DNA of 34,192 bases from Bacteroidia bacterium. GTDB lineage: Bacteria; Bacteroidota; Bacteroidia; Flavobacteriales; Flavobacteriaceae. The stretch's first letter is position 1; each line of letters begins with the position of its first letter. The position numbers and the translations under genes were made by a program. Positions 10,771-20,097 of the stretch are shown here, piece by piece. The notes under the pieces are model-generated. The model was not told the origin of the DNA. It saw only the letters and a program-made list of their open reading frames with translations, and did no database searches. Location: the NCBI GenBank assembly GCA_030429455.1, contig JAUIFC010000021.1, positions 1 to 34,192 on the forward strand. The letters are read 5' to 3'.

Positions 10771-11772
10771 ATGCCAACTAACCGCCACGCCCAGATACGA
10801 TATAATATTTTAGATAAGTGTTTTAGTAACTTTTCGAGATTGTACGCTTATGATGATCTTTTAGAAGAAGTCAATACAGTCTTGTATGATTTGGGTACAG
10901 AAGGCATACAACTCAGACAACTCCAATATGATATTGAGCACATGAAATCTACTGAAGGATGGGAAATTGAGTTTGAAAGTGGGTTAAAAAAAGGCAGAAA
11001 AAAAGCCTTTCGTTATAATGATAAAGACTTTAGCATCGCAAACCATCCCTTGAATGTTAATGATACAGATCAGTTACAAACGACTTTGGCTATTCTTTCA
11101 AGATATAAACATCGCGAAGAATTTTCATGGTTGGAAGAATTGATTCCCAGAATGCAACAGGCTTTTGACTTGGTAGCCGAAGGTGAGAATAGCATAATGA
11201 GTTATCAGGAAAACACCTATTTAAAAGGTAAAGAATACATAGGCGTTTTATTTAATTTGATTGTCAAACAAAAACAGATCCAACTCACCTACCAACCCTA
11301 TAATAAGCCAAAAGAAGTTTTTAGAGTATATCCCCAACATTTAAAACAATTCAATAACCGCTGGTTTTTATTTGCTTATAATTCAGAAGTTGAATCAATA
11401 TATAATTTTCCTCTGGATAGGATTTTAGACATTGAAGAGCTATCCAATTCCTTTGAAACTTTGGACATCAACTGGATAGATTATTTTGATGATATTGTTG
11501 GTGTCACAAAAACAGAAGATGGTCAAGTTGAAAAAGTTGTATTAAAGTTTAGTGAGCATCGGATTAATTATGTGCTGACCAAACCACTTCATGGTTCGCA
11601 AAGGCCTTATAAAGCAGATGAAAGTGGCACGAGTATTATGATTGAAGTCATCCCAAACCGTGAGTTATACCAACTCATCTTATCTTTTGGCGCTGATGTG
11701 ATTGTGATCCAGCCAGAGCATATAAGAGAAGAAATCAAAACTATAATCAATGCAATGAAAGATAATTATTAG
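10771..11772 (+). CDS. WYL-domain transcriptional regulator
   Basis: A 333-aa protein with an N-terminal winged-helix region (residues ~5-75, AQIRYNILDKCFSNFSRLYAYDDLL) and a central WYL domain (residues ~155-240, including LTYQPYNKPKEVFRVYPQHLKQFNNRWFLFAYN), then a C-terminal extension typical of WYL regulators. Proteins of this type control many phage-defence islands (BrxR and CapW are examples) and are thought to sense a nucleic-acid or nucleotide ligand through the WYL domain. It is the first gene of the island. The palindrome found at four promoters downstream is the obvious candidate for its binding site; the first copy begins 1 bp after its stop codon. That pairing is inference from position. 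Confidence 0.9.
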   Translation: MPTNRHAQIRYNILDKCFSNFSRLYAYDDLLEEVNTVLYDLGTEGIQLRQLQYDIEHMKSTEGWEIEFESGLKKGRKKAFRYNDKDFSIANHPLNVNDTDQLQTTLAILSRYKHREEFSWLEELIPRMQQAFDLVAEGENSIMSYQENTYLKGKEYIGVLFNLIVKQKQIQLTYQPYNKPKEVFRVYPQHLKQFNNRWFLFAYNSEVESIYNFPLDRILDIEELSNSFETLDINWIDYFDDIVGVTKTEDGQVEKVVLKFSEHRINYVLTKPLHGSQRPYKADESGTSIMIEVIPNRELYQLILSFGADVIVIQPEHIREEIKTIINAMKDNY

Positions 11773-11773
11773 T

Positions 11774-11808
11774 ATGCAGATAGAGTGCGTAAGTTTGGTA
11801 CATATTTG
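11774..11808 (+). promoter_or_regulatory. Operator/promoter A of the island
   Basis: Palindrome variant ATGCAGATAGAGTGCGT (11774-11790), 10 bp, then CATATTTG (11801-11808) followed by CA. It begins just after the WYL stop codon. It is the most diverged of the four copies, with mismatches in the right arm. Confidence 0.7.
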
Positions 11809-11832
11809 CATGAACAAACAAAAAAACTGATC

Positions 11833-12210
11833 ATGTTACCAAAAAAATCAATTAACATTTACCCAAAAAATGAAACAAATGTAGAAGCTCTGTTGGAATT
11901 CTATTTTAAAGACTTAAATGTTAGTTTTGATGGTGTTATAGATTTTCTTCTTGTTGAAAACAAACGCTTAGAGCTAAATCAAATCGAATTCATTTGCAGG
12001 AAAATAGTGGATGCATATCCAAATATTTTTAGGGTTAAATTGAATGGAATAATACACCTTAGAAATCTATTTAAATATGCCATTGATGCTCTTACTGTTA
12101 ATGAGTTTAGATGGAAAGGAAGCAGAAATCGTAATATGATAACAAAAGAGTTCAGAGATTTTGTAAAGTCAACTGAGGTTGATATAAGTTTTCTAGAAAA
12201 AAATAATTAA
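11833..12210 (+). CDS. Hypothetical protein, first gene of unit A
   Basis: A 125-aa protein with no family I recognise. It appears soluble and helical, with a basic C-terminal region (RWKGSRNRNMITKEFRDF). The in-frame GTG at 11785 lies inside the operator and upstream of the -7 box, so it cannot be in the transcript; I chose the ATG at 11833, about 25 bp after the box. The next gene starts 10 bp after its stop, so the two are probably one unit. The operator suggests co-expression with the retron and helicase units. Confidence 0.65.
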   Translation: MLPKKSINIYPKNETNVEALLEFYFKDLNVSFDGVIDFLLVENKRLELNQIEFICRKIVDAYPNIFRVKLNGIIHLRNLFKYAIDALTVNEFRWKGSRNRNMITKEFRDFVKSTEVDISFLEKNN

Positions 12211-12220
12211 ACTTAGAATT

Positions 12221-12607
12221 ATGGGTGTTTATAATCAAATAAGTTATTACAAGGCCTCTAGATCAAGACTTTTAAGTGATTACTTTAAAGAGGAATGGTC
12301 TAGTGTCGGGAGAGTTGTTTTTGAAAACCCGCCTTTTGAAGGTTTAGTTCTTAAATTGTGGGAAGATGTAATTTATATTGAATATCATAGAAGTATAAAT
12401 AAAGTATTTAGTAAGGATATTAAATCTAGGGTAAGAGCTTTTGAAAAAAGACTTTTTAACAGCATCCAATGTGAAATTTCAGATAAATGGATATGTATTA
12501 CACCAATAAAGAGGAATGACTTTCCTGACACAATAGAAGGAATGAAACTTAGAGCTGAACACTATGTATTTTTAGCAATTTTAAGTCTAGATTGCTTTAA
12601 AAATTAA
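12221..12607 (+). CDS. Hypothetical protein, second gene of unit A
   Basis: A 128-aa protein of unknown family. It is aromatic-rich and mixed alpha/beta by eye (LVLKLWEDVIYIEYHRSINKVF, then a C-terminal helix EGMKLRAEHYVFLAILSLDC). There is no signal peptide or membrane segment, so it is likely cytoplasmic. It ends 6 bp before operator B. With its upstream partner it could be a two-component accessory or toxin-antitoxin-like pair; nothing in the sequence proves this. Confidence 0.65.
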   Translation: MGVYNQISYYKASRSRLLSDYFKEEWSSVGRVVFENPPFEGLVLKLWEDVIYIEYHRSINKVFSKDIKSRVRAFEKRLFNSIQCEISDKWICITPIKRNDFPDTIEGMKLRAEHYVFLAILSLDCFKN

Positions 12608-12613
12608 AATACC

Positions 12614-12648
12614 ATGCAGATACACTGCATAAAAGCAAATTAGATTTG
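12614..12648 (+). promoter_or_regulatory. Operator/promoter B, retron promoter
   Basis: Perfect palindrome ATGCAG-ATACA-CTGCAT (12614-12630), 10 bp, then TAGATTTG (12641-12648) followed by CA. The expected transcription start, about 7 nt after the box, falls at the first bases of the retron a1 arm (12656). The -33 position is occupied by the palindrome rather than by a TTG. Confidence 0.82.
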
Positions 12649-12655
12649 CACTGTT

Positions 12656-12908
12656 CTTTGAAATACCTGCCAGAAGATATTGATCCGTGGGTGCTGGTCC
12701 CTTTTCATAGGGACAATGATCGGCATTTTCTCCCGGCCTTGGTTGGGATGAATGTCACTTAGGCATTATGCTCAGTTCTGTCATTGATCTTAGTATTAAT
12801 AATATGAATTTGTCATTGATGTATTATAAGTGATTAATAGGTATTGAATTTCAATTGTAATGATTGAAATATTCATACATAAAGAGTATCAGGCAGGTAT
12901 TTTCAAAG
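12656..12908 (+). ncRNA. Retron msr-msd non-coding RNA
   Basis: A 16-nt arm CTTTGAAATACCTGCC (12656-12671) is complementary to GGCAGGTATTTTCAAAG (12892-12908) with one bulged T. These are the a1 and a2 repeats that close a retron RNA. Between them are an msr-like hairpin GTCCCT/AGGGAC (12697-12702 and 12709-12714), a stem built on TCCC/GGGA near 12731-12748, a long-range stem TCACTTA/TAAGTGA (12755-12761 and 12827-12833) and a stem around 12846-12875. G12673, just after a1, is a possible branching guanosine. The RNA lies directly before a reverse transcriptase with retron motifs. Exact msr/msd borders cannot be set by eye. Confidence 0.82.
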
Positions 12909-12926
12909 TTCTTAAAAACTTTAAAG

Positions 12927-14117
12927 ATGAAAATTGAACAAGCACATATCGACCAAATAAGGAAGCAATTTGAAGAATTGCAAAGCAAAGAAGACTTAGT
13001 GAAGCTTTTAAATGACGCTAAGTATATGCTTTATGGTGAGGAGTGTAAGCCTGTTCAATTGAAATCATTGACATACTACGCGAATCCCGAAATCTGCAAA
13101 AAACGTTACCAGACATTTATGATCAAGAAGAAATCCGGTACAGACCGTACTATCAATGCTCCTGTAAAAGGATTGAAATCAATATTGCGACCACTAAATT
13201 TTGTATTGCAGTGTATTTACGAACCCCATGAAGCAGCAACTGGATTTGTAAAAGATAAGTCTATTGTAGATAATGCAAAAAAACACGTTGGGCATCATTA
13301 TGTCCTTAACCTGGACTTAAAAGACTTCTTTCATTCGTTTGAACGCAATAGGGTAAAAATGGGTTTTATTTACGAGCCTTTCAACCTTGGCGGAGGCAAA
13401 GAACCATTAGCTTTTTTACTGGCAAGTTTGTGTACTCATCCGTTTGAAATTGACGGAGAAGTAAAAACCGTACTTCCGCAAGGCAGTCCAACATCACCGA
13501 CTATAACTAATATTCTATGCAAGAAACTTGACCGTAGGTTAAATGGATTGGCAAACAGATATGGAGCAACATTCACTCGGTACGCTGACGATATTACTTT
13601 TTCCTCACCACACAACATCTATAATGACGAAGCATTCAACAAGGAATTGAAACGAATCATTGAGGAAGATCAGGATTTGGCTATCAATCCTAAAAAGACA
13701 CGATTACAAAAAACAGCCTACCGTCAGGAAACCACGGGATTAATTGTAAATGAAAAGGTGAATGTTCGAAAGAGATATGTAAAGCAAATCCGGATGTGGT
13801 TGTACTACTGGGAAAAGTACGGTTATGAAAAAGCGAAACAGATATTTAAACGGGATTATATTTCCGACAAAGGGCATGTGAAAAATATGAATGCTGATTT
13901 AGTCAATGTGTTGGATGGGAAATTGGAGTTTTTGAAAATGATAAAGGGTGCTCAGGACTCAACCTATAAAGGGTTGAAGATTCGGTTTGATAAATTGACA
14001 GGGGTTAAATACAAACAAAATTTTAAAAAAGTTGATTTAGAGAGTGTGGTAAACACGATATTGAGCAAAGGGCTAGACGAAGGTATTAGTCTCTATGATC
14101 GATTTAAAAAACAATAA
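12927..14117 (+). CDS. Retron reverse transcriptase
   Basis: A 396-aa protein that would copy part of the adjacent msd RNA into branched msDNA. Retron hallmarks are visible in order: NAKKH (116-120, the NAxxH motif), the NLDLKDFFHSF segment with D130 (128-138), LPQGSPTSP (183-191), the catalytic YADD (219-222), NPKKT (254-258), and TTGLIVN (269-275) in the place of the retron VTG motif. A group-II-like thumb segment (GKLEFLKMIKG) follows. An in-frame TTG at 12864 would put the a2 arm inside the coding region; the ATG at 12927, 18 bp after a2, fits retron architecture better. The accessory gene begins 3 bp after the stop codon. Confidence 0.93.
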   Translation: MKIEQAHIDQIRKQFEELQSKEDLVKLLNDAKYMLYGEECKPVQLKSLTYYANPEICKKRYQTFMIKKKSGTDRTINAPVKGLKSILRPLNFVLQCIYEPHEAATGFVKDKSIVDNAKKHVGHHYVLNLDLKDFFHSFERNRVKMGFIYEPFNLGGGKEPLAFLLASLCTHPFEIDGEVKTVLPQGSPTSPTITNILCKKLDRRLNGLANRYGATFTRYADDITFSSPHNIYNDEAFNKELKRIIEEDQDLAINPKKTRLQKTAYRQETTGLIVNEKVNVRKRYVKQIRMWLYYWEKYGYEKAKQIFKRDYISDKGHVKNMNADLVNVLDGKLEFLKMIKGAQDSTYKGLKIRFDKLTGVKYKQNFKKVDLESVVNTILSKGLDEGISLYDRFKKQ

Positions 14118-14120
14118 AAA

Positions 14121-15005
14121 ATGAAAGATAAGGAAAAACTCAAAAAGCTTGTTCAAATCATTGGTGATCTTTTGAAAGAAGAAGAAAACGAATGGTTAAC
14201 GGACGAAATATTGAAGGTCATTGGCGAAGCTAATCCAGTCGAAGAAATGGCTAAACATTCCCTTATCCAAAACATCCATGAATATTGTGTTGAACAAAAA
14301 ATTGATAAACAGTCAAAAGAATTCTATGATTCATTCCCAATAGCTGAAATTAAAGATCAACTTATATTGGATTACAAAAAAATGGAACATGAAAGAAGAC
14401 GGGATGATTTTGAAAACTTTTGTCTATGTATGTACCAGCAGATTGAAAATATTACCAATTTTCTTTTTGAGAAGAATATTAAAAGTGTTTGGAACGCAGA
14501 GAAACATAAGATAGCTGTTAAATCATTTTTTGACAGAACTAAGAGGAAATATGTGATTCCAAATACAGGAGGAACCTCATTAGAGCAATTAGTTTTTCAG
14601 GGGACTGACACATCAAAATGGTTCGCAAACAGAAAATTTCGAGCCGTACTATTTTTCTTTTATTACAAAAAGAATGTAACTAGAGATGACTATGAATTCA
14701 ATTCAATCTATTTCACTCATCAAGAGATTTATCAGATGAGAAATCAAAATCACAGAGGAAGTAATCCAACAACTTATCAACAAAAAACATTAGATAAAAT
14801 AAAAGGGAACGAATCAAGGTTCTTTTTTAAATTCTACGGATTCCTTCAAGACTTTGTCAATCAAATAGAGTCATCATACTCCACAAAATCAAAAAGTGGA
14901 AATAAGAATAAGAAATCAGGCAAAACCAAATCTCAAATAAACACCATCGGTGCAAGTAACCCTGAATTAGAAAAATTGAAGCAACAGATGAAGAAAAATG
15001 AATAG
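14121..15005 (+). CDS. Retron-associated accessory/effector protein, possibly HEPN-like
   Basis: A 294-aa soluble protein starting 3 bp after the reverse transcriptase stop, so it is the likely effector of the retron. Residues ~1-90 are charged and helical. A helix FENFCLCMYQQIENITNFLFE (97-117) is followed by RTKRKYVIP (139-147) and a helix ending in MRNQNHRG (206-213). The helix-with-Glu plus later Arg-Asn-x-x-His order resembles HEPN ribonucleases, but the spacing is R-x3-H and not the usual R-x4-6-H, so the assignment is weak. The C-terminus (~255-275) is a Lys/Ser-rich linker. The last base of its stop codon is the first base of operator C. The retron type cannot be named from sequence alone. 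Confidence 0.7.
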   Translation: MKDKEKLKKLVQIIGDLLKEEENEWLTDEILKVIGEANPVEEMAKHSLIQNIHEYCVEQKIDKQSKEFYDSFPIAEIKDQLILDYKKMEHERRRDDFENFCLCMYQQIENITNFLFEKNIKSVWNAEKHKIAVKSFFDRTKRKYVIPNTGGTSLEQLVFQGTDTSKWFANRKFRAVLFFFYYKKNVTRDDYEFNSIYFTHQEIYQMRNQNHRGSNPTTYQQKTLDKIKGNESRFFFKFYGFLQDFVNQIESSYSTKSKSGNKNKKSGKTKSQINTIGASNPELEKLKQQMKKNE

Positions 15006-15039
15006 TGCAGATACACTGCATCTGTTATTATAACCTTTG
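15005..15039 (+). promoter_or_regulatory. Operator/promoter C, helicase unit
   Basis: GTGCAG-ATACA-CTGCAT (15005-15021), 10 bp, then AACCTTTG (15032-15039) followed by CA. The palindrome overlaps the stop codon of the preceding gene by one base. The helicase ATG is 17 bp after the box. Confidence 0.8.
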
Positions 15040-15056
15040 CATGAAATAAAAAAGTA

Positions 15057-17183
15057 ATGAAAATCTTTAACCATTTCCAACATATCAATCTCACTCAAGA
15101 CCAACACAAAGCTTTGGAAGGGCTTTCTAGATTTTTAGAAAGCGATGATCGGATTTTTATCCTACAGGGATATGCGGGAAGTGGTAAAACTACATTGCTA
15201 AAAGGTTTGATTCAGTACCTTTTAGAGCTTAAAAAAGCATTCGATGTAATGGCACCAACGGGTCGAGCAGCTAAAATCCTTAAGGACAAAACTAGTTTCG
15301 GCCAGACCATTCATAGAACAATATACAATTTTAAGGAGCTGCAAACCTTACAGGATAAGAACAATAAAGACGACCATTCTTTTCACTATCTATTTCCTAT
15401 TGATCTCAATGATTTTGATGACAAAATTCTCATCATAGATGAGGCTTCCATGATATCAAGTAGAGAATCAAAAAACGAAATCTTCTCTTTTGGAACAGAT
15501 GTTTTACTTGATGATTTATTGACTTATAGCAGAGTGCCACACTCTAATAATAAAATAATTTTTGTTGGTGACCCGGCCCAGCTCCCGCCGGTTGGAGATA
15601 ATACCTCAAAAGCTTTAATGCCAAAATATTTTTTAGATTTAGGCATCAAAACCCAACATGTTATTTTAGAACAAGTCGTCAGACAAAAAGAAAATAATAT
15701 TCTCAAGAATGCTGCTAAAATAAGAACATTAATTTCTTCAGATAAAAGAAGTGAATTGAAATTGGATTATGATCAGGATTCATTTATTAAAAGTCAAAGT
15801 GAGAATCTAGCACAACAATACTATGAAAAATTTCCAATTCCCGAAATTGGTGATAGTGTAATTATAGCGTTCAGTAATGCTCAATGCCTAAATTATAATA
15901 GAGCTGTTAGAACTAAAATATTCCCTAATCATGACCATGTAACAAGCGGTGATTTATTGATTATTACTCATAATAATTACCACACCTACGGCTTTGATTT
16001 AATGAATGGTGAGATGGTTAAAGTTATGAAAGCAAGTCAGAGTATCATTCCAAGAAAAAATATACCTGTTTACGAAACTGTAAATGGAAAAAGAATAAAA
16101 AAACACATCACATTACACTTTAGAAAAATACTAATCAGAGTTGAAAATCACTCAGAAGAATTAGAGTGTTTAATCATAGATTCTTTACTGAATTCTCCGC
16201 ATAGAGACCTTACAATTTCAGAAATGAAAGCTTTATACATAGATTTTGTGATGCGCTTTCAAAGTGAACAAGCAAGAAGAAAAGAAAATGGATTAACTTT
16301 TTATAGAGTTGGTTCATCTCAATTTAAAGACCAGCTAAAAACAGATAAATATTTCAATGCCCTTAGGGTTAAGTATGGTTATGCTATAACCTGTCATAAG
16401 GCTCAAGGTGGTGAGTGGTTAACTACTTTTGTCGATTATTATGGTAGGACCAGCCTAAAAGAAGACCCCTTAAGATGGTCATATACGGCCACCACACGTG
16501 CAATCGAAAGATGTTATGCGGCGAATGCCCCTAACGTCAATTTTTTATCAAGCTTTAATATAGGTGATATAAAACCATTAACAAATATACCTCAAAATGT
16601 ATTAGCCCTTAATAATATACCAGTTTCACCATTTCATTCAGCAGATCAGCATAGGGCAAAAAGTTTGAAATATTGGGAAATAAATGAGAAAATAGAGCAT
16701 ACACAATTTCAAATTGAGTCTGTAAATAGCTTTGGCGGTTTTCAGGAGCGATACACGATTTCTTTTCTCGATGAAAAAGAAGAGTTTGATGCTTATCATA
16801 ATGGTGCCGGACTATTTAAAAAATTCACAGCAGTTCATCCAGATAGAAATGATTGGCAAAAGGAAGTTTTAGAATTACTTAACAAGACATATCACATTAC
16901 CTTTAATATTGATTATAATCCTTCATACAACTTTTTAGAAAGACTATATGGCTTGGTTCAGTCATTATGTTCTGATGTTGGTATTACTATAACAAATATT
17001 GAAGAGAGGCGAGCAAGCTACTTTGTTAACTATTACCTTAAGACCGATGTAAAATGTGCTTTGATTCAATTTTATTTCAATGGTCGGGAACAGCTCACCA
17101 GAGCTTTACCAAAATCAACAGAAGGTAATGAGGATGAAAAATTAAATCTATTAATCTCAAAACTTCAAGCTTATGTCATTTAA
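15057..17183 (+). CDS. RecD-like superfamily 1 DNA helicase with extra C-terminal domain
   Basis: A 708-aa ATP-dependent helicase of the RecD/Pif1/Dda group. Visible motifs are the Q-motif-like LTQDQHKAL (12-20), Walker A GYAGSGKTT (38-46), APTGRAA (66-72), Walker B LIIDEAS (125-131), motif III GDPAQLPPVG (171-180), the arginine-containing VVRQ (207-210), YAITCHKAQGGEW (442-454) and YTATTRA (476-482). Residues ~530-708 have no helicase motif and form an extra domain I do not recognise. The gene is led by operator C and overlaps the TPR gene by 11 bp, so the two are translationally coupled. Helicases of this group paired with TPR/S1-like proteins occur in predicted bacterial conflict systems; that link is inference. 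Confidence 0.9.
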   Translation: MKIFNHFQHINLTQDQHKALEGLSRFLESDDRIFILQGYAGSGKTTLLKGLIQYLLELKKAFDVMAPTGRAAKILKDKTSFGQTIHRTIYNFKELQTLQDKNNKDDHSFHYLFPIDLNDFDDKILIIDEASMISSRESKNEIFSFGTDVLLDDLLTYSRVPHSNNKIIFVGDPAQLPPVGDNTSKALMPKYFLDLGIKTQHVILEQVVRQKENNILKNAAKIRTLISSDKRSELKLDYDQDSFIKSQSENLAQQYYEKFPIPEIGDSVIIAFSNAQCLNYNRAVRTKIFPNHDHVTSGDLLIITHNNYHTYGFDLMNGEMVKVMKASQSIIPRKNIPVYETVNGKRIKKHITLHFRKILIRVENHSEELECLIIDSLLNSPHRDLTISEMKALYIDFVMRFQSEQARRKENGLTFYRVGSSQFKDQLKTDKYFNALRVKYGYAITCHKAQGGEWLTTFVDYYGRTSLKEDPLRWSYTATTRAIERCYAANAPNVNFLSSFNIGDIKPLTNIPQNVLALNNIPVSPFHSADQHRAKSLKYWEINEKIEHTQFQIESVNSFGGFQERYTISFLDEKEEFDAYHNGAGLFKKFTAVHPDRNDWQKEVLELLNKTYHITFNIDYNPSYNFLERLYGLVQSLCSDVGITITNIEERRASYFVNYYLKTDVKCALIQFYFNGREQLTRALPKSTEGNEDEKLNLLISKLQAYVI

Positions 17184-17949
17184 AGAAATCAACGAACTTA
17201 GAAGAGACAATAAACTAGATGAAGCTTTAGAAAAGGCAATCCAAGCATTAGAATCTGATGCCGAAAATATTTGGAATAAAAGAGCAGCCTCATGGGTATA
17301 TTATGAATATCTCAAAAAGTATTCTGAACATAACTCATTTGATGCATTTAAGGCTATTCTTCTAAAATTAAAAGAACTTCAACTTCCTGAAGATGAAAAA
17401 ATGGTATTTGATAATTCAGCCTGGCAAATTGGGAGGTTAATTTATAATTTACAAAAGCAAGACCCCGTAAGTTATTCAAAGATTAATGAGGTCTTTGATA
17501 TTATAAAAGAATTTCATTTTACAAAACCATCTGAATCTTATTCCTTCATTTACAAGGCTTTTCACAAAGGATACCAGAACTGGTCTAAATATCTGGAATT
17601 TGCAGATTGGTGGAATTTCGAAAATTTTCGCCAAGAAGATTATCAAAGTGAAGAATACAATGGCAGAGCGATGATGCCTTTAGCAGAAAAAGCCTTCATA
17701 GCTTATGCAAAGAAACTTTTAGAAGGTGAGCCATTAGATGCTTATGGTCAGCGAAGAGATATTGACAAGGATAGAATTAGATCATTCCTTCCGTTACTTG
17801 ATGAATTGATTGAACAGTATCCATACTTTAAATATTCATCATTTTACAAAGCAAAATTATTATTAGCATTGGGTGACGATAAAAATGTACTGTCTGCATT
17901 TTTGCCATTTGCTAGACAAAAACGAAATGATTTTGGGTATGGGATGTGA
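17173..17949 (+). CDS. TPR-like protein, N-terminal part of a split gene
   Basis: A 258-aa frame of helical TPR-like repeats, beginning INELRRDNKLDEALEKAIQALESDAENIWNKRAASWVYYEY, with aromatic-rich helices after it. It overlaps the helicase by 11 bp. It ends RQKRNDFGYGM-stop, a sudden break in the middle of a helical repeat. Adding one T in the TTTT run at 17931-17934 gives DFWVWDVM and joins smoothly to the next frame, which carries on the same helical repeats. I therefore read 17173-18689 as one ~505-residue TPR plus cold-shock/S1-like protein split by a -1 event: sequencing error, mutation, or programmed frameshifting. Confidence 0.75.
   Translation: MSFKEINELRRDNKLDEALEKAIQALESDAENIWNKRAASWVYYEYLKKYSEHNSFDAFKAILLKLKELQLPEDEKMVFDNSAWQIGRLIYNLQKQDPVSYSKINEVFDIIKEFHFTKPSESYSFIYKAFHKGYQNWSKYLEFADWWNFENFRQEDYQSEEYNGRAMMPLAEKAFIAYAKKLLEGEPLDAYGQRRDIDKDRIRSFLPLLDELIEQYPYFKYSSFYKAKLLLALGDDKNVLSAFLPFARQKRNDFGYGM
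17931..17934 (+). other. Apparent -1 frameshift site (TTTT)
   Basis: The P-site codon TTT (17932-17934) can slip back one base onto an identical TTT, after which the reading is TGG GTA TGG GAT GTG ATG, in frame with the downstream coding part. The zero frame ends at TGA 17947-17949, which overlaps a GTG (17946) and an ATG (17949) start. Confidence 0.65.
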
Positions 17950-18689
17950 TGTCTGAAATATTTGAAGATAATCAAGAAACAAAATTTTCTTGCTTTTGTA
18001 AAGCACTAAGTCTTAAATCTCCGGAAGACTTTCTAGTCAAAATAAGGCAAAAATTCGCAGGCCTATTAATTGCAAAAGAAATGTATAACGAAGCAAAATA
18101 TGAGATTAAGAAAGTCATAGACACAAGAAATAAACACGGTTGGAATTTACCTCCAATTATAAATCAATGGGTCAGTCAAGAATGGTATATAAAAGCAACT
18201 GAAAAAGATAATAAGACTTTATATAGAACCCATAAAACAAAAGCAGAAGAGATTTTATACCAAGATATTCAGGAAGACATTGTTGCTGTAGAGTTTGTTA
18301 ACAGCAATAAAAAAATACTCAACTTTATAATTAATAAAGATAAACATGGCTTTTTTAAATACCCTAGTCAATTGGATAATCCAAAGGTTGGGGATATATT
18401 AAAGGTAAGATTTAATAAATTCAGTATAAATAGTATTTCAAAAATATACACAGCTAGAAAAATTAGTTCCGATACTGCAATTGAAGCCATAAAGTCATTT
18501 GAGGGATGGTTTGAAAGAATACCAAACAAGAACTTTGGATTTGTGGATGATATTTTTATCAATTCAGAGGTTATTAATAAATATAATTTAGACGATAGTC
18601 AAATGTTAAAAGGTAAAGCCGTATTATCTTATGATAAAAGTAAAGAAAAATATGGCTGGAAATGTTTTGAAGTCAGCAAATCTTCTTAG
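17946..18689 (+). CDS. TPR/cold-shock (S1-like) protein, C-terminal part of a split gene
   Basis: A 247-aa frame starting at GTG 17946 or ATG 17949, overlapping the stop of the previous frame. The first ~70 residues continue helical repeats (LLIAKEMYNEAKYEIKKVIDTR). Two OB-type segments follow: residues ~98-160 (EDIVAVEFVNSNKKILNFII...GDILKVRF) and residues ~178-247, which resemble a cold-shock/S1 domain (FEGWFERIPNKNFGFVDDIF...KGKAVLSYDK). Such domains bind single-stranded nucleic acid. It is probably the second half of one TPR-S1-like partner of the RecD-like helicase. If truly separate, the start-stop overlap would couple it to the upstream frame. Operator D begins directly after its stop codon. 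Confidence 0.75.
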   Translation: MMSEIFEDNQETKFSCFCKALSLKSPEDFLVKIRQKFAGLLIAKEMYNEAKYEIKKVIDTRNKHGWNLPPIINQWVSQEWYIKATEKDNKTLYRTHKTKAEEILYQDIQEDIVAVEFVNSNKKILNFIINKDKHGFFKYPSQLDNPKVGDILKVRFNKFSINSISKIYTARKISSDTAIEAIKSFEGWFERIPNKNFGFVDDIFINSEVINKYNLDDSQMLKGKAVLSYDKSKEKYGWKCFEVSKSS

Positions 18690-18724
18690 ATGCAAATACA
18701 CTGCACACCTCTATCTCATCTTTG
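18690..18724 (+). promoter_or_regulatory. Operator/promoter D, DUF3127 unit
   Basis: ATGCAA-ATACA-CTGCAC (18690-18706), 10 bp, then CATCTTTG (18717-18724) followed by CA. It starts immediately after the preceding stop codon, and the DUF3127 ATG lies 23 bp after the box. Confidence 0.78.
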
Positions 18725-18747
18725 CACAATAATTAAAATAAAACAAC

Positions 18748-19110
18748 ATGGAACTCACAGGAAAAATACGATTAATAGAAGACACCCAAACCTTTAAAAA
18801 CGATTTCAAAAAGCGAAATTTAGTGTTGACTACGGAGGATAGATATCCTCAGTATATTTCTATTGAGTTTTTAAATGATAATACAGCAGTGCTAGATGGC
18901 TTTCAGCCAGAAGATGAGGTTAAGATAGGTATAAACATCCGAGGCAGAGAATGGGTTAACCCACAAGGTGAAACCAAATTTTTTAACTCTATAGTCGGTT
19001 GGCGAATAGAAAAGATAAAAACAGAAAAAACTACAGTACCCGAAGCTACAGTGCCAGACCATGATTTTGATCTGGATGTTGAAGACGATGATGATGGGTT
19101 GCCGTTTTAG
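18748..19110 (+). CDS. DUF3127 protein with SSB-like acidic tail
   Basis: A 120-aa Bacteroidota-type DUF3127 protein, a predicted OB-fold (MELTGKIRLIEDTQTF...KKRNLVLTTEDRYPQYISIEF...VKIGINIRGREW). The C-terminus is strongly acidic and ends DDDDGLPF, closely resembling the DDDIPF tip by which single-stranded DNA-binding proteins recruit partner enzymes. It therefore likely binds ssDNA, or substitutes for SSB, and could dock the nearby helicase. It is the first gene of unit D. DUF3127 genes also occur in phages and mobile elements. Confidence 0.85.
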   Translation: MELTGKIRLIEDTQTFKNDFKKRNLVLTTEDRYPQYISIEFLNDNTAVLDGFQPEDEVKIGINIRGREWVNPQGETKFFNSIVGWRIEKIKTEKTTVPEATVPDHDFDLDVEDDDDGLPF

Positions 19111-19134
19111 ACCTAAACTTTATTTTAATACTAG

Positions 19135-20097
19135 ATGAAAACACTTGAACAAGTCTTACATGCTATTAAAACATTAGATTTTAATGCACTAGTTTTATTA
19201 CTTGATCATAACAAATCCTATATGGATGTTCCAAAAAGTCTATTTCTTGAACGTTTAGAGGAAAGTATAATGGAACAATTAGGCAAAGACTTTAAAGGAT
19301 TTGATAGAGTAATTAAAGGAATTTGTAGCTCATGTAACAAAGGTTGTGATGCCTATAGTTTTCAATCTAAAGGCTATCCGTCGTTAAATTTGTTTTTTGA
19401 AATGCAAAAAGATGAAATCAACGATATATACCTGTGTTGTCATCTCATTCATGATGATGCAACTGAAGAGTTTATTGATTTTTTCTTTTACAAAGAGGAA
19501 ACAGAACGTTTTATTCCAACAGAAAGATATTTGTTTGATAAACAAAGGGCAGATCAAGCTGTTGAAGAATTTAATAAAATGACCAAAGACAAATATGTTG
19601 CCATAGAAAATCTATTCTATTGGAATGAAAAATTTAAAGATTTAACAGACGCTTTTGGTTGGCATCATGGCTATCATCCGTATAAGTATTTAGTTGAATT
19701 TGATTCAATATGTCGAGATATATGTGATTTTGTAGAACTGTATGAAACCGTGAATACAGCTAAAAAAGCCATGCGAGAATACAAAAAAATAGCCAACGAA
19801 AAAGACCTTGTCGTATGGTTATTTAAATACCAGAGGAGTTTGGTGTACGATAAATTTGAAGGGATAGGGGATTGGATGAAAACAGGTTTTTTAAAGTTTA
19901 AATTGATTCCTGACTTAATTGTAGATTGTACAGAATGTATGGATGCTTTTGAGTTTAGTTTAGTATTTACAAAGGAGCGTTACAGGCTTAAAGTGAAATA
20001 TCAACGAGAAGGTGAAGACTATGATGGAATTATGTACGATTTAAAAACTTACTTAAGGTTTCGTAACAAGTATCTAGATATTTTACCTTCAGATTAG
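19135..20097 (+). CDS. Hypothetical protein with a CxxCxxxC motif, last gene of the island
   Basis: A 320-aa cytoplasmic protein I cannot assign. Visible features are GICSSCNKGCDAYSF (about residues 63-77), whose C-x2-C-x3-C could bind a metal together with the later CC pair in YLCCHLIHDD; an aromatic central segment (FGWHHGYHPYKYLVEFD); and a charged C-terminal half. It starts 24 bp after the DUF3127 stop, so it is in the unit led by operator D. Being co-expressed with an SSB-like protein makes a nucleic-acid-related role plausible, no more. Confidence 0.6.
   Translation: MKTLEQVLHAIKTLDFNALVLLLDHNKSYMDVPKSLFLERLEESIMEQLGKDFKGFDRVIKGICSSCNKGCDAYSFQSKGYPSLNLFFEMQKDEINDIYLCCHLIHDDATEEFIDFFFYKEETERFIPTERYLFDKQRADQAVEEFNKMTKDKYVAIENLFYWNEKFKDLTDAFGWHHGYHPYKYLVEFDSICRDICDFVELYETVNTAKKAMREYKKIANEKDLVVWLFKYQRSLVYDKFEGIGDWMKTGFLKFKLIPDLIVDCTECMDAFEFSLVFTKERYRLKVKYQREGEDYDGIMYDLKTYLRFRNKYLDILPSD

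Follow-up and report, generated by a model that had tools for sequence, protein, structure and literature searches.

Why do successive gene cassettes carry the same palindrome at the same distance from the same promoter box, and which protein reads it? The question is raised by a 34,192-nt stretch of Flavobacteriaceae DNA (Bacteroidia bacterium, GenBank assembly GCA_030429455.1, contig JAUIFC010000021.1; here contig G000:C39 within a 4.1 Mb genome), the whole of which we call the window. It encodes a regulator with WYL and WCX domains, followed on the same strand by cassettes that include a retron-type reverse transcriptase (RT) and a TOTE-type pair. The original prediction took four palindromes of this island as the operators of a WYL-linked regulon. 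We find that these operators have a fixed geometry and are linked to WYL genes. Sequence comparison strongly supports regulation by the WYL protein, and activation is the likely mode.

Four palindromes precede −7 boxes at identical spacing

Four palindromes, each 10 bp ahead of a box ending TTTGCA, had been placed in the window, and all of these positions were borne out. The regulator, the putative operators and their −7 boxes are the following (aa, amino acids):

10771 to 11772, forward: WYL+WCX regulator, 333 aa (Pfam WYL and WCX; AlphaFold model; best Foldseek match DriD)
11774 to 11790, forward: operator 1, ATGCAGATAGAGTGCGT, a 17-mer starting 1 nt past the WYL stop codon (stop ends at 11772)
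11801 to 11810, forward: −7 box 1, CATATTTGCA, predicted start near 11813 from a box position of −12 to −5 (available part of PMC9723704)
12614 to 12630, forward: operator 2, ATGCAGATACACTGCAT, beginning 6 nt past a stop ending at 12607
12641 to 12650, forward: −7 box 2, TAGATTTGCA, predicted start 12653
15005 to 15021, forward: operator 3, GTGCAGATACACTGCAT, at 0 nt, with a one-base overlap with the stop ending at 15005
15032 to 15041, forward: −7 box 3, AACCTTTGCA
18690 to 18706, forward: operator 4, ATGCAAATACACTGCAC, 0 nt past a stop ending at 18689
18717 to 18726, forward: −7 box 4, CATCTTTGCA

The distances to the upstream stop codons (1, 6, 0, and 0 nt) agree with the earlier statement that each site lies within a few bases of one. 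The sites at 11774, 12614, 15005, and 18690 depart from the consensus at 3, 0, 1, and 2 positions, respectively, operator 1 being the weakest of the four because its second half reads TGCG. Ten bases separate the end of the palindrome from the box at every site; TTTGCA is common to all boxes, while the full TAnnTTTG occurs only at 12641 and the other three read nAnnTTTG, with the A and no T before it. Given a TAnnTTTG position of −12 to −5, as described for Flavobacterium psychrophilum in the available part of PMC9723704, the palindrome would span −38 to −24, centered at −31, and thus lie over the −33 region.

Scanning the window at up to 3 mismatches returned these four sites as the sole matches, against an average of 0.10 in 100 shuffled sequences, none of which reached 4. 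A relaxed scan of both strands, which allowed at most 1 mismatch over the eight TGCA bases and required TTTG at 30 nt past the first T, gave the same four only and no site at the promoter of the WYL gene itself, in line with the claim that the motif with its −7 box is absent from that gene and from the rest of the window. Elsewhere in the genome, a fifth site in the same phase was found at G000:C62:30441, 211 nt from a contig end, where a lone operator and −7 box stand ahead of an open reading frame (ORF) of ~23 codons, either a decayed cassette or an assembly gap.

The phased site recurs next to related WYL genes

An alignment of 22 WYL sequences (A1) was used to fetch loci, yielding 86 of them (1.42 Mb), that is, the best 80 of 524 relatives from genome records plus 6 from viral contigs; as best relatives these are non-independent, and several share contigs with the family sample described below. 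TGCA-N7-TGCA occurs 132 times in this set, against 11 to 43 times for spacers of 2–6 and 8–14. Measured from the palindrome's first base, TTTG is at a distance of exactly 30 nt in 91 site orientations, the other 44 offsets averaging 2.1, and five Markov shuffles produced 0, 0, 0, 0, and 2 such phased sites. The 91 orientations represent 87 distinct palindromes, 87 of them different as 34-mers, since four (L152, L168, L172, and L182) are phased in both directions. In the sequence logo, the eight TGCA bases and TTTG were fixed by the search and the flanking signal was free. It revealed R before the palindrome, mostly Y after it, an asymmetric core GATnnA when sites are oriented by the box, and, in the box, A at the second base (89%) and T at the first (69%). 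The sequence between palindrome and box varies and the distance is constant.

At least one phased site is present in 65 of the 86 loci; type strains with such sites include Maribacter ulvicola (L131) and Gaetbulibacter saemankumensis (L111). In 26 loci a site falls within the stretch from 30 nt ahead of the WYL stop codon to 60 nt past it, and in 33 within 250 nt upstream of WYL, facing a divergent gene; one or the other placement applies to 55/86. Further sites stand ahead of cassettes kilobases distant from WYL. The original prediction had named the WYL protein as the natural candidate for the binding factor, and these 55 loci, fetched by the WYL protein alone, speak for that choice.

Motif and WYL group co-occur across the family

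We then scanned 299 genomes of the family with the strict pattern RTGCA-N7-TGCAY-N11-ANNTTTG, which matched 47 times in 30 genomes; the reversed pattern used as control matched 4 times, and another reversed-pattern control gave 1 against 35. The WYL group was delimited by a match of at least 213 bits (21 genomes, 35–100% identity; next score 186). The motif was present in 16 of the 21 genomes with this group as opposed to 14 of the 278 others (Fisher p 1.8e-14), and an alternative cut at 35% identity, which adds 3 genomes, gave 17/24 and 13/275 (p 1.4e-14). The co-occurrence test that had been proposed for the regulon reading, with its operator-led cassettes and WYL link, thus came out in its favor. 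Within the genomes, 26 of the 47 strict sites have a member of this WYL group at most 20 kb away; another three, added after they had been seen, lie as close to a more distant WYL gene, making 29/47. The other 18 include three further matches in the genome of the window itself (contigs C62, C63, and C164). Five WYL-group genomes have no strict match, and three of these (L081, L086, and L087) carry a one-mismatch version directly past the WYL stop, in the right phase.

A sister WYL clade keeps the phase and changes the half-site

To look for dyads of any kind close to WYL, we scanned 17 loci whose WYL proteins have 30–34% identity. Dyads of the type YRCGCAA...TTGCGYR, upstream of WYL and facing away from it, were found in 8 of them. 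In six (L089, L095, L098, L099, L105, and L107), the center of the dyad lies exactly 23 nt before TTTG, as it does at the TGCA sites; the distance is 24 nt in L103, and L100 has no TTTG. Counting all dyads of the scan, offset 23 occurred eight times, offset 30 four times, and others once or twice; two of the eight offset-23 dyads are a TGCA-type site, in L101, and an AT-rich one. The WYL proteins of these eight loci group together in a single clade (support 0.99); one of them, in L099, is encoded by a second WYL gene of the genome that contains the window. Each regulator clade thus has its own half-site and the geometry is shared, an argument for the WYL protein itself being what binds. The divergent genes of the sister clade encode RtcB (L089, L098, and L107), RlaP (L105), or DUF6331 (L095); L103 has only a 66-aa divergent ORF, none was found in L100, and L099 begins too near a contig end. 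WYL control of RNA repair in Bacteroidota, if true, would be a finding of its own.

The second operator very likely drives the retron RNA

Operator 2 stands ahead of the retron, which comprises the following features:

12653 to 12908, forward: predicted retron msr-msd RNA, in which a1 from 12653 can pair with a2 at ~12892–12908
12927 to 14117, forward: retron-type RT, 396 aa (RVT_1; PADLOC retron RT models, best RT-Protease_XI, 2e-99)
14121 to 15005, forward: retron-associated protein, 294 aa, no family in library scans of the window proteins

As in retrons, an a1/a2 inverted repeat lies upstream of the RT, as judged by sequence and predicted fold, and the leader folds with a z-score of −3.85. 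The best RT models are those of types XI and XII, of which the 396-aa protein covers only the RT part. NCBIfam retron models also matched the window RT, below their cut-offs, and no Rfam RNA family matched in the window at the gathering threshold. Relatives of the 294-aa protein adjoin the RT in L164 (on a contig shared with L075) and L173.

Since TAnnTTTG occupies −12 to −5 in F. psychrophilum, the start of the second window promoter is predicted at 12653; when 8 chosen leaders are aligned, the invariant G-T-T-C-T-T-T columns begin at this same base. Related leaders were found at up to 13 loci besides the window. Most of them begin with GTTCTTTGAA and end with the complementary repeat ahead of the RT. 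We measured the distance from the nearest operator's TTTG to the first RNA repeat in the window and in 13 other loci. The repeat begins 4–7 nt past TTTG in 13 of these 14, which makes it very likely that the retron RNA itself is driven by operator 2. Only L135 departs from this, its repeat lying 40 nt past TTTG; L170 has a second operator further upstream.

Contents of the island and cargo behind operators elsewhere

The island is ordered as the WYL+WCX gene, two small ORFs without a family, the retron-type RT and its 294-aa partner, the TOTE-type pair, and a DUF3127 gene. Beyond the features listed above, it contains:

11833 to 12210, forward: cassette 1 gene A, 125 aa, no family (library scans)
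12221 to 12607, forward: cassette 1 gene B, 128 aa, no family (library scans)
15057 to 17183, forward: TOTE-type helicase (PDC-M16A, TBP-TOTE), 708 aa (Pfam and PADLOC)
17173 to 17949, forward: PDC-M16B, N-terminal part (Pfam and PADLOC)
17949 to 18689, forward: PDC-M16B, C-terminal part (DUF7017 end and S1CSD-TOTE domains), in a different frame from the N-terminal part
18748 to 19110, forward: DUF3127 protein, 120 aa (library scans)
19135 to 20097, forward: 320-aa ORF downstream of DUF3127, no family (library scans)

At E 0.01, gene A matched neither Pfam nor NCBIfam families, and PADLOC gave a single weak match (E 0.0064); gene B has a distant relative in L083 (29% identity). The TOTE assignment rests on a helicase with TBP-TOTE and a partner with S1CSD-TOTE domains. 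This partner is split (17173–18689) into two aligned parts 14 nt apart in different frames; in nine loci with both parts, they lie in a single frame, 15 or 33 nt apart, with no stop inside. The split may reflect either decay or a sequencing error. The genome of the window was found to have three DUF3127 copies, at G000:C201:80780, G000:C79:3512, and, under operator 4, at 18751 of the window; an operator-led DUF3127 gene is present in L153 too. The 320-aa ORF probably forms one unit with the DUF3127 gene. Its assignment to a small family of operator-led ORFs was rejected, as a search of 72 sequences gave a match to the L120 ORF alone (E 9e-7) and a profile built from seven such ORFs, that of L120 included, found nothing.

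Among the 91 phased site orientations, 16 have no ORF in range and 3 lead to WYL itself, the remaining 72 giving 70 different first ORFs. Family counts, which may overlap within one protein, were N6_Mtase 21, RVT_1 12, Eco57I 11, HATPase_c 9, HsdM_N 8, DUF2130 7, AAA_30 helicase 6 (4 with TBP-TOTE), HIRAN 5, AAA_15 2, BrxA 1, and DUF3127 1; PADLOC assigned 21 type I methyltransferases and 13 retron RTs. First genes hence include type I methylases, retrons, TOTE helicases, and BrxA. DUF2130, recurrent as a first gene (7/70; L110, L111, L115, L121, L140, L155, and L158, named by the look of their translations), is a candidate defense family.

Relatives of the window proteins were also sought in 126 loci, the 86 plus 40 from the family sample, with some contigs represented twice. 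RT relatives occur in 22 of these, 15 with an operator 238–313 nt upstream, and TOTE helicase relatives in 20, 11 with an operator 16–68 nt upstream (one mismatch allowed). Contigs L163, L170, and L175, labeled Ignavibacterium, archaeon, and Atribacteria, encode RTs 72–83% identical to that of the window, which points to either wide transfer or misbinned contigs.

Activation, repression, or another factor

The original prediction left undecided whether the factor activates or represses; geometry and domain architecture now favor an activator. The AlphaFold model of the WYL protein (mean predicted local distance difference test, pLDDT, 85.3; predicted template modeling score 0.53; residues 136–149 below pLDDT 50) shows the domain order of DriD, with a predicted winged helix-turn-helix, a three-helix linker (96–110, 121–131, and 155–166), a WYL barrel, and WCX. 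Foldseek ranked DriD first (8.2e-13) and then PafBC, above CapW and BrxR, and a profile search likewise placed DriD and PafBC first (~4e-5). The best-fitting region is the WYL-WCX part, with a template modeling score (TM-score) of 0.75 by target length to 9cu3. In the mechanism that we propose, the four palindromes would be operators of the WYL protein encoded just upstream, and an operator followed after a constant 10 bp by a −7 box would constitute a promoter without a recognizable −33 element. A signal, most likely single-stranded DNA (ssDNA) from phage attack or DNA damage, would bind the WYL domain, and a WYL dimer on TGCA-N7-TGCA over the −33 region would hold RNA polymerase as DriD does. 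One regulator could thereby switch on the stacked cassettes, namely the two-gene cassette, the retron with its RNA, TOTE, and the DUF3127 gene. Resting on predicted binding and, for activation and the ssDNA signal, on analogy, this DriD-like activator of stacked defense cassettes is the reading that we consider reasonably probable.

Several observations weigh against it. TTTG at offset 43 from the palindrome (11 cases) stands well above all offsets except 30, the next being 19 nt (7) and 31 nt (6). No TTTG in phase accompanies 45 of the 132 palindromes, and 21 of the 86 loci lack an exact phased site. Some sites between WYL and the divergent gene could block the WYL promoter too, four palindromes being phased both ways. 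The whole-chain TM-score to DriD is 0.45–0.48. R211 and R214 of PafB are needed for ssDNA binding; the R214 equivalent is the conserved R217, and the R211 position is Ala or Pro in the aligned sequences. TTG precedes the box in 81 operator promoters at a gap of 17 in 11% and of 18 in 5%, making a −33 element possible in some. Cores within the other loci are no more similar than between loci: in the test of locus-specific cores (window left out, one orientation per palindrome, pairs with at least 4 spacer differences), 25 within-locus pairs differed by 3.64 on average against 3.87 when permuted, with 370 of 2000 permutations as low, and the idea was discarded. Including the window's four sites (31 pairs) gave 3.23 against 3.82 (13/2000), which is not independent evidence because those sites were noticed for being alike.

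The WYL protein may instead be a repressor of the CapW/BrxR type that covers the promoters and releases them on a signal, a reading that we regard as less likely though a serious competitor. WYL proteins at defense loci can indeed repress: CapW and BrxR bind palindromes and repress defense operons (available parts of PMC9122588 and PMC9122601), Foldseek finds both, and an operator overlapping the promoter allows steric blocking. Nevertheless, the spacing between palindrome and box does not vary by a single base here and the core is oriented, unlike at the CapW and BrxR sites, and the fold search puts both proteins below DriD and PafBC. We favor activation clearly because of the DriD parallels and because CapW and BrxR sites are placed differently, the former over −10 and the first repeat of the latter past its promoter. 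Loss of the −33 element was set aside as proof of activation: TTG at a gap of 19 occurs in 7.6% of 131 background promoters and in 0 of the 81 operator promoters, a weak contrast that is partly forced because the palindrome occupies that stretch. According to the available part of PMC7366714, a −33 motif was not identified in F. johnsoniae.

It is improbable that a factor encoded elsewhere, for instance of the Crp/Fnr type, binds the palindromes and WYL is a mere neighbor. Such a factor would fit the absence of the strict motif from 5/21 WYL-group genomes and its presence in 14/278 without the group, but sites adjoin WYL in 55 of 86 loci retrieved by that protein, three of the five misses have the one-mismatch version right past the WYL stop, and the half-site differs in the sister clade with the phase kept. 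Still more doubtful are recombination or insertion sites for cassette build-up, attC/attI-like. Every window site stands at a cassette border and the cargo is diverse; yet no integrase family was found among the ten proteins scanned in 10771–20097, the palindrome-box sequence varies at fixed distance, and the same phase is found in promoters divergent from WYL. Chance or general AT-rich promoter features, for which one could cite TTTG boxes as the common −7 element of the phylum (available parts of PMC9723704 and PMC7366714), can be dismissed in view of 0–2 phased sites per shuffle against 91 and reversed controls of 1 against 35 and 4 against 47.

What a shared operator would mean

For the DriD-like activator, the recurrence of WYL together with a two-part tag suggests that a DNA-damage-type switch could jointly turn on several anti-phage systems stacked in one island, a largely open question. 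With about even odds, in our view, a plug-in promoter code extends across Bacteroidota. In it, a DriD-like WYL activator would replace the −33 element at fixed phase, and cassettes with operator and −7 box would join a common ssDNA-triggered stress regulon, serving defense in one WYL group and RNA repair (RtcB and RlaP) in the sister clade with its own half-site. Transcription of the retron RNA would be tied to a likely DNA-damage sensor. A readable code of operator, fixed distance, and −7 box would predict the set of genes under the control of one regulator in many Bacteroidota; if true, the operator is a tag that provides a scan for unknown defense genes, and the choice between activator and repressor becomes testable. 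WYL regulators of defense and DriD-type activation are already known; their combination as an operator code for stacked Bacteroidota cassettes was not found in print in searches of an open-access collection. These searches, covering few subscription papers and no bioRxiv preprints, gave no paper on the motif or on a WYL regulon of Bacteroidota defense genes.

Comparison with known regulators

CapW and BrxR are the WYL regulators of phage defense loci that bind palindromes, and both are repressors. According to the available parts of PMC9122588 and PMC9122601, CapW sites overlap −10, the first BrxR repeat is downstream of the promoter, and BrxR has two sites in the studied island; the string "Bacteroid" occurs in neither main text. 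The putative operators described here would lie at neither of those positions, being placed at −38 to −24 in the 91 site orientations. CapK/CapS likewise exert DNA-damage-linked control of diverse immune operons, and differ in pairing a kinase with a STAS-like repressor in place of a WYL activator (available part of PMC13373217). Closer to the proposed mechanism are PafBC and SiwR of mycobacteria, WYL activators acting near −26/−35 under genotoxic stress. As differences, PafBC is a heterodimer that does not bind its DNA without polymerase, and SiwR is described as controlling one adjacent operon (available parts of PMC11804915 and PMC10693628).

The closest known system is DriD, an ssDNA-triggered activator. 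Each of its sites overlaps −35 at a constant distance from −10, is bound asymmetrically, and belongs to a poor promoter; DriD drives the divergent operon and not driD (available part of PMC12340889). Asymmetric binding, poor promoter, and divergent operon each have a parallel or candidate parallel here, and the likeness extends to domain order and to a predicted site over −33 at a fixed distance from the −7 box; by analogy, ssDNA may be the signal of the window protein too. DriD, from Caulobacter crescentus, belongs to another phylum, shares ~15% identity with the window protein, and targets DNA-damage and division genes, whereas the predicted targets here are defense cassettes.

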